Assembly: GCF_000718095.1 (NCBI RefSeq)
Contig: NZ_JOEI01000018.1
Span: 1 to 64,000 of the forward strand
DNA from: Streptomyces scopuliridis RB72
Lineage (GTDB): Bacteria > Actinomycetota > Actinomycetes > Streptomycetales > Streptomycetaceae
Direction: 5' to 3'
Length of the DNA stretch: 64,000 nt
Shown here: one piece after another, positions 30,794 to 34,229 of the stretch
Layout: each line of letters begins with the position of its first letter
Position numbering within the stretch: the stretch's first letter is position 1
Notes under the pieces: model-generated
The model's database searches: none
Told to the model about the DNA's origin: nothing
The model's input: only the letters and a program-made list of their open reading frames with translations
Made by a program: the position numbers and the translations under genes

Positions 30794-33700
30794 TTAGATC
30801 TTGCGCAGGCGGAACGTGAGGGAGAGGCCCTCGTCCGTGAAGGGGGTGCCGTACGCGTCGTCCGCTTCGCCCGTGGCGAAGTCCGTGGCGAGGACCTCCT
30901 CGGAGATCAGCGGGGCGTGTGCGGTCAGGGCTTCCGTGGTGGACGGGGAGGATGTCGTCCAGCGGACCGCGATGCGGTCCGCCACGTCGAGGCCGCTGTT
31001 CTTGCGGGCCTCCTGGATGAGGCGGATCGCGTCACGGGCCAGGCCCGCGAGGCGCAGCTCCGGCGTGATCTCCAGGTCCAGGGCGACCGTCGCCCCGGAG
31101 TCCGAGGCGACCGACCAGCCTTCGCGCGGGGTCTCCGTGATGATCACCTCGTCGGGGGCGAGCGAGATCGGCTCGCCGTCGATGGTCACCGTGGCCGTAC
31201 CGTCGCGCAGGGCGGCGGAGAGGGCCGCCGCGTCCGCCTCGGCGACGGCCTTGGCCACCGCCTGGACGCCCTTGCCGAAGCGCTTGCCCAGCGCGCGGAA
31301 GTTCGCCTTGGCCGTGGTGTCGACCAGCGAGCCGCCCACCTCGGAGAGCGTCGCCAGCGAGGAGACGTTCAGCTCCTCGGTGATCTGGGCGCGCAGCTCG
31401 GCGGAGAGGTCCTCGAAGCCCGTCGCCGCGATCAGCGCGCGGGACAGCGGCTGGCGGGTCTTCACGCCCGACTCGGCGCGCGTCGCGCGGCCCAGCTCGA
31501 CCAGCCTGCGTACCAGCGTCATCTGCCGCGACAGCGCCGGATCGATCGCCGTCAGGTCGGCCTCCGGCCAGCTCGCCAGGTGGACCGACTCCTCCGCCTC
31601 GGCCGTCACCGGCACGATCATGTCCTGCCAGACCCGCTCGGTGATGAACGGGGTCAGCGGGGCCATCAGCCGCGTGACCGTCTCGACCACCTCGTGCAGC
31701 GTGCGCAGCGCCGCCTTGTCGCCCTGCCAGAAGCGACGGCGCGAGCGGCGTACGTACCAGTTGGAGAGATCGTCGACGAAGGCCGAGAGCAGCTTGCCGG
31801 TGCGCTGGGTGTCGTATGTCTCCATGGCCTGGGTGGTCTGGTCGACCAGCGCGTGCAGCTCGCTCAGCAGCCAGCGGTCGAGCAGCGGGCGGTCGGCCGG
31901 CGCCGGATCGGCCTGGCTCGGGGCCCAGTTGGAGGTGCGCGCGTACAGGGCCTGGAAGGCGACCGTGTTCCAGTACGTGAGCAGCGTCTTGCGGACGACC
32001 TCCTGGATCGTGCCGTTGCCGACGCGGCGGGCCGCCCACGGGGAGCCGCCGGCCGCCATGAACCAGCGGACCGCGTCCGCGCCGTGCTGGTCCATCAGCG
32101 GGATCGGCTGGAGGATATTGCCCAGGTGCTTGGACATCTTGCGGCCGTCCTCGGCGAGGATATGGCCGAGGCAGACCACGTTCTCGTACGACGACTTGTC
32201 GAACACCAGCGTGCCGACGGCCATCAGCGTGTAGAACCAGCCGCGTGTCTGGTCGATCGCCTCCGAGATGAACTGCGCCGGGTAGCGCTTCTCGAAGAGG
32301 TCCTTGTTCTTGTACGGGTAGCCCCACTGCGCGAACGGCATCGAACCCGAGTCGTACCAGGCGTCGATGACCTCCGGGACCCGGACGGCCTCCAGCGAAC
32401 AGCCCTCGGTGGGGCAGCCGAACGTGATCTCGTCGATGAACGGGCGGTGCGGGTCCAGCGCCGACTGGTCGGTGCCCGTCAGCTCGCTCAGCTCCGCGCG
32501 CGATCCCACGCACGTCAGGTGGTTGTCCTCGCAGCGCCAGATGGGCAGCGGGGTGCCCCAGTAGCGGTTACGGGACAGCGCCCAGTCGACGTTGTTGTTC
32601 AGCCAGTCCCCGTACCGGCCGTGCTTGACCGAGTCCGGGAACCAGTTGGTCTTCTCGTTCTCCTCCAGCAGCCGGTCCTTGATGGCCGTCGTACGGATGT
32701 ACCAGGACGGCTGCGCGTAGTAGAGCAGCGCGGTGTGGCAGCGCCAGCAGTGCGGGTAGCTGTGCTCGTAGGGCACATGGCGCAGCAGCAGGCCGCGCGT
32801 GCGCAGGTCCTCGGTGAGCGCTTCGTCGGCCTTCTTGAAGAAGACCCCGCCGACCAGCGGGACGCTCTCCTCGAACGTGCCGTCGGGGCGGACCGGGTTC
32901 ACGACCGGGAGGCCGTACGCGCGGCAGACCTTGAGGTCGTCCTCGCCGAAGGCCGGGGACTGGTGGACCAGACCCGTACCGTCCTCGGTCGTGACGTACT
33001 CGGCGTTGACGATGTAGTGCGCCTCGGTCCCGTCCGGGAAGTCGATCAGCGCGAAGGGGCGCTTGTACGTCCAGCGCTCCATCTCACGGCCGGTGAACGA
33101 CTCGCCGGTGGTCTCCCACCCCTCGCCCAGCGCCTTCTCCACCAGTGGCTGGGCGACGACGAGCTTCTCCTCGCCGTTCGTCGCGACGACATAGGTGACA
33201 TCGGGGTGCGCGGCGACGGCGGTGTTCGAGACCAGGGTCCAGGGGGTGGTCGTCCAGACCAGCAGCGCCGCCTCGCCCGCGAGCGGTCCCGAGGTGAGCG
33301 GGAAGCGGACGAAGACCGAGGGGTCGACGACCGTCTCGTAGCCCTGCGCCAGCTCATGGTCGGACAGGCCCGTCTGGTCGCGCGGACACCAGGGCGCGAC
33401 GCGGTAGTCCTGGACCAGCAGGCCCTTGTTGAAGATCTCCTTCAGCGACCACCAGACGGACTCGACGTACTCCGGGTCCATCGTGCGGTACGCGTCGTCC
33501 AGATCGACCCAGTACCCCATGCGGGTCGTGAGCTCGGCGAAGGCGTCGGTGTGCCGGGTGACGGACTCGCGGCACTTGGCGTTGAACTCGGCGATGCCGT
33601 ACGCCTCGATGTCCTGCTTGCCGGTGAAGCCCAGCTCCTTCTCGACGGCCAGCTCGACGGGCAGGCCGTGGCAGTCCCAGCCGGCCTTGCGGGCGACGTG

Positions 33701-33952
33701 GTAGCCGCGCATGGTGCGGAAGCGCGGGAAGACGTCCTTGAAGACCCGGGCCTCGATGTGGTGCGCGCCCGGCATGCCGTTGGCGGTGGGCGGGCCCTCG
33801 TAGAAGACCCACTCGGGGCGGCCCTCGGACTGTTCGAGGCTCTTGTCGAAGACCTTGCTCTCGCGCCAGAAATCGAGCACGGCGTGCTCCAGCGCGGGCA
33901 GATCGACCTGGGCGGGCACCTGGCGGTACTGGGGCGGGGTCACTGGTGTCAT
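30794..33952 (-). CDS. ileS: Isoleucyl-tRNA synthetase with GXHH signature
   Basis: The 1052-aa class I synthetase charges tRNA-Ile. The catalytic domain starts with WVFYEGPPTANGMPGAHHIEAR, and the site normally reading HIGH is Gly62-Ala-His-His65. The CP1 editing domain follows (VWTTTPWTLVSN), then GRKMSKHLGN (KMSKS loop) and the anticodon-binding C-terminus. The overall sequence is of the eukaryote-like IleRS2 type, which resists mupirocin; the swapped GXHH form is known from Bacillus IleRS2 to give very high resistance. ATG 33952 has GGAGGA 8 bases upstream. Translation is probably controlled by the T-box leader just upstream. Confidence 0.95.
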   Translation of the reverse strand: MTPVTPPQYRQVPAQVDLPALEHAVLDFWRESKVFDKSLEQSEGRPEWVFYEGPPTANGMPGAHHIEARVFKDVFPRFRTMRGYHVARKAGWDCHGLPVELAVEKELGFTGKQDIEAYGIAEFNAKCRESVTRHTDAFAELTTRMGYWVDLDDAYRTMDPEYVESVWWSLKEIFNKGLLVQDYRVAPWCPRDQTGLSDHELAQGYETVVDPSVFVRFPLTSGPLAGEAALLVWTTTPWTLVSNTAVAAHPDVTYVVATNGEEKLVVAQPLVEKALGEGWETTGESFTGREMERWTYKRPFALIDFPDGTEAHYIVNAEYVTTEDGTGLVHQSPAFGEDDLKVCRAYGLPVVNPVRPDGTFEESVPLVGGVFFKKADEALTEDLRTRGLLLRHVPYEHSYPHCWRCHTALLYYAQPSWYIRTTAIKDRLLEENEKTNWFPDSVKHGRYGDWLNNNVDWALSRNRYWGTPLPIWRCEDNHLTCVGSRAELSELTGTDQSALDPHRPFIDEITFGCPTEGCSLEAVRVPEVIDAWYDSGSMPFAQWGYPYKNKDLFEKRYPAQFISEAIDQTRGWFYTLMAVGTLVFDKSSYENVVCLGHILAEDGRKMSKHLGNILQPIPLMDQHGADAVRWFMAAGGSPWAARRVGNGTIQEVVRKTLLTYWNTVAFQALYARTSNWAPSQADPAPADRPLLDRWLLSELHALVDQTTQAMETYDTQRTGKLLSAFVDDLSNWYVRRSRRRFWQGDKAALRTLHEVVETVTRLMAPLTPFITERVWQDMIVPVTAEAEESVHLASWPEADLTAIDPALSRQMTLVRRLVELGRATRAESGVKTRQPLSRALIAATGFEDLSAELRAQITEELNVSSLATLSEVGGSLVDTTAKANFRALGKRFGKGVQAVAKAVAEADAAALSAALRDGTATVTIDGEPISLAPDEVIITETPREGWSVASDSGATVALDLEITPELRLAGLARDAIRLIQEARKNSGLDVADRIAVRWTTSSPSTTEALTAHAPLISEEVLATDFATGEADDAYGTPFTDEGLSLTFRLRKI

Positions 33953-33954
33953 GG

Positions 33955-34229
33955 GGCGCTTCCTCCGGCGGAACTGCGGCATCTCCGTCGGAGGGACGAG
34001 AGCAGTGCTCCCGCGGTACCACCCTCCTTGGCCCCGGGCGTGCGCCGCCCGTGGCCCCCTCATTGGGGTCGCGCTGCCGGTTCTACTCGCTCCGGTGGGA
34101 CCGGGGCTTTCTTCCGGCGGCTCCGGGGTGATGCTTCACTTCGCGCTCTGCCCCCGGGCTCTCACCGTCCCCGGGTCGCTCATGGCCGCGTACGACGCTA
34201 CTCGTCCCCATCCACGCCTCTCGCTCGGC
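33955..34229 (-). promoter_or_regulatory. T-box riboswitch (translational type) of ileS
   Basis: On the minus strand the ileS leader carries GGGACGAGTAG near its 5' end (Stem I hallmark), a candidate specifier codon ATC followed by A (34130-34132), and the T-box AGGGTGGTACCGCGG (within 34011-34029). The TGGT can pair with the free 3' end of tRNA-Ile, whose discriminator base is A. No U-tract terminator follows. Instead CCCTCC at 33990-33995 is complementary to the ileS Shine-Dalgarno GGAGGA at 33961-33966, so uncharged tRNA would free the ribosome site. Actinobacterial ileS T-boxes are known to act on translation. The 5' boundary is approximate; a TACACT at 34232-34237 may be the -10 element. 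Confidence 0.88.

Follow-up and report, generated by a model that had tools for sequence, protein, structure and literature searches.

The housekeeping isoleucyl-tRNA synthetase of Streptomyces scopuliridis RB72 carries the published GXHH variant of the class I signature, an ordinary state in its genus

The window, i.e., the whole stretch of 64,000 nucleotides analysed here from a contig of Streptomyces scopuliridis RB72, contains one ileS gene, which is preceded by a leader of the T-box type. The relevant features are as follows.

30794..33952, minus strand: ileS, isoleucyl-tRNA synthetase (IleRS) type 2, protein P0001 (1052 aa; ATG at 33952; stop codon included)
33758..33769, minus strand: GAHH (Gly62-Ala63-His64-His65), the swapped class I signature, from translation and from alignment to 1ile and 8c8w
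32126..32140, minus strand: KMSKH, the second class I signature motif (residues 605-609, from translation)
33989..34223, minus strand: T-box leader before ileS (RF00230, 41.5 bits, E 7.1e-8, full model 1-219)
34130..34132, minus strand: putative T-box specifier codon ATC (Ile), with ATC in this column in 80/80 aligned Streptomyces leaders

The plus strand reads gtggtgcgcgcc at 33758-33769, and the minus strand thus reads GGC-GCG-CAC-CAC, which is translated into GAHH when residues are counted from the ATG at 33952. This start is favoured by the preceding GGAGGAAG stretch and by the lengths of the homologues (1039-1126 aa, mostly 1045-1063, in the 120 matches listed). P0001 scores 899 bits against TIGR00392, whose cut-off is 621.4. 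The context of the motif, FYEGPPTANGMP-GAHH-IEARVF, was matched by phmmer without gaps to GPPTANGLP-HVGH of Thermus thermophilus IleRS2 (1ile), and the GAHH column was likewise matched without gaps to GVHH in chain 8c8w of Priestia megaterium IleRS2. It was therefore confirmed that GAHH occupies the HIGH column at residues 62-65, as an earlier note on this DNA had proposed. P0001 has G/A-X-H-H in the HXGH column, which is the defining trait of the published G/AXHH group of IleRS2. A covariation of residue 52 (Glu/Asp) with the motif was also considered and dropped, since the solved HVGH enzyme 1ile has Glu there as well.

The T-box match does not reach the gathering score that Rfam sets for the family (93), and a default scan of the window gave no match. 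The T-box core GGTGGTACCGC is nevertheless present in 80/80 Streptomyces loci (the best 80 of 579 candidates), so that this ileS leader falls under the gathering score despite the conservation of both its core and its ATC specifier. A T-box stem, a specifier, and a T-box sequence are found upstream of ileS, as in the actinobacterial ileS T-boxes that were proposed in 2005 to act on translation (PMC1262725), a type in which the Shine-Dalgarno box would be sequestered and no terminator is used. The expression of ileS is probably under the control of a translational T-box reading tRNA-Ile through the ATC specifier.

Is P0001 a type 2 enzyme, and is it the only IleRS of the strain? PF00133, PF08264, and PF19302 (at 856-1044) are present in P0001. 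PF06827, the zinc finger of IleRS1, is absent from P0001 and was found in 3/3 IleRS1 proteins run alongside. In a tree of 240 rows, made with FastTree only, P0001 lies on the 204-row side, apart from the 36 IleRS1 rows with a support of 100, and thus groups with IleRS2. Judged by its C-terminal domain and its tree position, P0001 is an IleRS2, in agreement with the earlier note. That note had also taken the gene for the only housekeeping ileS in view, and this holds across the 8.24-Mb assembly (117 contigs, completeness 100), where a single place exceeds the TIGR00392 cut-off, although a second ileS could have been missed because of the 117 contigs. Eight weaker places below the cut-off were read, by score and length, as other class I synthetases rather than as a second ileS. 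By inspection, the neighbours of ileS read as division genes, lspA, and the genes for a zinc-finger DksA/TraR-like protein and a pseudouridine synthase.

The trait is not restricted to this actinobacterium. GAHH was found in 80/80 Streptomyces loci (again the best 80 of 579 candidates), with the context PPTANGMP in 79/80 and PPTANGLP in 1/80, and in 120/120 of the closest proteins listed (the best 120 of 7999 scored). Since it recurs in all of these loci and listed proteins, GAHH is not a chance occurrence. To cover the phylum, 272 Actinomycetota genomes were examined and 239 were fetched, the other 33 being left out because of no match (7), repetition within a genus (12), a match ending before the motif (3), or a match not listed (11). 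Two of the 239 lacked a readable motif. The remaining 237 comprise 167 with GXHH, 49 with HXGH, 19 with HXGT, one with GXHN, and one with HXGN, and the GXHH genomes belong to 52 family codes. On the FastTree tree, GXHH requires 3 changes (against a mean of 60.4 after shuffling), HXGH 6, and HXGT 3. A published active-site variant is thus what the housekeeping IleRS ordinarily carries in the Streptomyces loci and in most of the Actinomycetota genomes read, and it is hard to view GAHH as a strain-level resistance mutation. The trait is most probably inherited, both in the genus and in most of these genomes, and not a recent resistance mutation.

Three single rows, all from metagenome-like assemblies, appear to deviate from their surroundings. 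An IleRS2 with HIGH (L285:112-2799, plus strand) lies inside the otherwise GXHH family code f12 of the 172-row GXHH lineage; its nearest join has a support of 7 and the 12-row family node a support of 99. It is possible that this is a second natural reversion besides that of Deinococcus-Thermus. In another IleRS2 of the GXHH lineage (L324:1-2703, minus strand), the fourth His is replaced by Asn, giving GVHN in one row of the 172. The same replacement gives HFGN in an IleRS2 of the HXGH lineage (L305:121-2871, plus strand), which adjoins PPFANG/HYGH enzymes.

The G/AXHH group was defined in IleRS2 by Brkic et al. in 2023, who found it in 86/379 IleRS sequences and linked it to millimolar inhibition constants for mupirocin (PMC10485003). 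As natural enzymes with a non-canonical motif, that paper names the IleRS2 of Streptomyces griseus and of Deinococcus radiodurans. Motif exchanges in IleRS2 from D. radiodurans, T. thermophilus, and P. megaterium alter the Ki for mupirocin by two to three orders of magnitude (PMC10485003). S. griseus IleRS has a mupirocin Ki of 10 mM, and Escherichia coli expressing it grows at 100 µM mupirocin (Cvetesic 2016, PMC4861432). Three loci titled S. griseus encode an IleRS that is 88.3-88.9% identical to P0001 across 1048-1053 aligned positions. The S. griseus enzyme (SgIleRS2) shares GAHH and KMSKH with P0001, and nothing bearing on the mechanism was found to differ. D. radiodurans IleRS2 also has a natural non-canonical motif (ALHH) and a mupirocin Ki of 6.6 mM (PMC10485003), but the first position is Ala instead of Gly. 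The P. megaterium enzyme (8c8u, 8c8v, 8c8w, 8c9d) is an IleRS2 like P0001, and its GVHH form in 8c8w aligns over residues 22-1022; it differs in that the wild type has HVGH and the GVHH form was engineered (PMC10485003). Thus, the observation of GAHH is right, while the trait and its link to resistance are already known, S. griseus included.

The earlier note had stated that work on Bacillus IleRS2 connects the GXHH swap with extreme mupirocin resistance without loss of activity. The connection with mupirocin stands, but the Bacillus example is inexact, since wild-type P. megaterium IleRS2 is an HVGH enzyme. Likewise, unimpaired activity applies to natural D. radiodurans IleRS2 and not to the engineered P. 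megaterium enzyme, in which KM and kcat become up to 10-fold worse (PMC10485003). The explanation given for the relatives of P0001 is that IleRS2 has a displaced tip of helix alpha1, owing to which the third-position His does not collide with adenine. The imidazole nitrogen of this His then sits where in HXGH enzymes the first His acts, which keeps amino acid activation (PMC10485003). Upon mupirocin binding, the alpha1 tip moves back, and in a model the third His then clashes with the drug, bringing the Ki into the millimolar range (PMC10485003). By orthology, P0001 would use the same mechanism and be hyper-resistant to mupirocin. Catalytic activity and a millimolar Ki, published only for the enzymes of S. 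griseus and D. radiodurans, would be expected of P0001. The suggestion of intrinsic hyper-resistance in the earlier note is reasonable in this sense, as it follows from the Ki of 10 mM of the S. griseus orthologue and from the causal motif exchanges (PMC4861432, PMC10485003). With a probability of roughly 0.93, I take P0001 to be the housekeeping type 2 IleRS of Streptomyces in the GXHH lineage, with the mechanism and hyper-resistance of its relatives and with the trait inherited.

Other explanations were weighed against this reading. That GAHH is an error or a decoy, with a working HIGH motif elsewhere, is negligible in probability; the earlier note had named a true HIGH motif elsewhere as the finding that would overturn its claim. 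A scan of the whole P0001 found no HXGH anywhere, so that this objection fails. Only one further place comes close to the patterns tried, namely HLGN at 609, directly after KMSK. The motif column is moreover free of gaps against the solved IleRS2 chains, and GAHH agrees in all 80 loci and all 120 listed proteins described above. It is also very unlikely that the gene is a self-resistance copy from a gene cluster that makes an IleRS inhibitor. Such copies do exist, as exemplified by SbzA, the second IleRS of the SB-203208 cluster (PMC9113183, PMC6331615, PMC12945691). SbzA is an IleRS-like Streptomyces protein, as is P0001, but it is borne by a cluster and has HYGH and AMSKA in place of GAHH and KMSKH. 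Its charging of tRNA is only weak, and it transfers Ile onto altemicidin (PMC12945691, PMC6331615). The window gene is the sole ileS over the cut-off in its assembly and thus not a second copy of the SbzA type, its neighbours are the division and other genes listed above, and its leader and coding sequence are common to the 80 Streptomyces loci (best 80 of 579).

A more serious alternative is that GXHH did not arise as an adaptation to mupirocin but is an old, selectively neutral form of the active site within this IleRS2 lineage, with hyper-resistance as a by-product. The breadth of GXHH, i.e., 167/237 readable Actinomycetota genomes in 52 family codes, is consistent with this, and so is its presence in small genomes: 7/7 read in family code f72 (complete genomes of 1.3-1.4 Mb and one of 2.2 Mb) and 11/11 read in f9 (assemblies of 1.3-2.1 Mb). 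In the 172-row GXHH lineage, the only departures are the one reversion-like HXGH row and the one GVHN row. On the other hand, Brkic et al. favoured antibiotic selection (PMC10485003), and the motif state alone does not separate ancestral selection from neutrality. I would give the neutral origin somewhat less than an even chance. The inherited GXHH state of P0001, with the properties of its relatives, remains the preferred reading of the locus itself.

Two side leads, if they hold, matter more than the confirmation of GAHH. One is an IleRS1 with HXGT, in which the fourth His of the signature is replaced. HXGT was found in 19/237 genomes of 6 family codes (rows L013, L022, L024, L027, L028, L031, L033, L229, L237, L244, L245, L248, L249, L251, L253, L259, L267, L269, and L270). 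At E 1e-120, a single ileS match was obtained in each of these genomes, and the HXGT enzyme is thus probably the working IleRS of its genome. An end-to-end alignment of the L033 protein with P. megaterium IleRS1 (8c9e) places GDIHLGT on GDIHMGH, and the IleRS1 zinc finger is present in 3/3 HXGT proteins tested. A profile made from 11 of the 19 proteins retrieved 119 HXGT and one HXGH among the 120 matches listed (the best 120 of 8000 scored), under names including Candidatus Aquicultor, Anoxymicrobium, Solincola, and Geothermincolia. According to the legend of Figure 2 in PMC10485003, HXGH is present in all IleRS1; the methods of that paper state that sequences without the catalytic motif were discarded, which may explain why HXGT was missed there. 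The same paper mentions laboratory mutants of Staphylococcus aureus with a changed fourth His. In the open-licence PMC literature, no report of HXGT in an isoleucyl-tRNA synthetase was found, and a wider search matched PMC10485003 alone. If the reading is true, natural HXGT IleRS1 would mean that working enzymes can do without the fourth His of the class I signature, contrary to the statement in that legend.

The other lead is a second ileS beside a nonribosomal peptide synthetase (NRPS) cluster. Among 150 genomes drawn from the genus of the window, 148 have one ileS match, one has none (78% complete), and one, G308, has two. G308 is apparently a Streptomyces, as judged by its genus code and the named relatives of the window protein. 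Its housekeeping IleRS has GAHH, and its second copy, 39.7% identical, has HYGH and KMSKS.

L335:2090-5287, minus strand: second ileS, HYGH-type, with neighbours in L334 and L335 (loci of the two-copy genomes G308 and G594, together with L339, L341, and L342)

The NRPS genes beside the second copy of G308 encode 1184 and 3911 aa, and the other neighbours encode a 4'-phosphopantetheinyl transferase, a GNAT protein, a JmjC/cupin protein, a CmcI-like methyltransferase, and a DUF2817 protein. No relative of the DUF2817 protein was found in the genome of the window, where there are many other NRPS matches. Of 394 genomes drawn from the family, one from another genus (G594) has a close HYGH copy, 86% identical to that of G308, along with a GAHH housekeeping IleRS. 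The same contig of G594 carries counterparts of the NRPS (74%), the DUF2817 protein (81%), the transferase (61%), and the GNAT protein (53%). In the two-copy Streptomycetaceae genomes, the second IleRS is 38-40% identical to the first. HYGH was found in 120/120 of the relatives listed, whose names include Kitasatospora, Streptomyces, Streptosporangium, and many Pseudonocardia. The coexistence of the two types suggests that the protection given by GXHH extends to mupirocin but not to all inhibitors of IleRS. As a tentative and rather doubtful idea, the cluster might make an IleRS inhibitor to which the GXHH enzyme is sensitive, the HYGH copy being either a self-resistance enzyme or, like SbzA, a biosynthetic transferase. 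If so, finding HYGH copies next to this NRPS cluster would indicate a new IleRS inhibitor.
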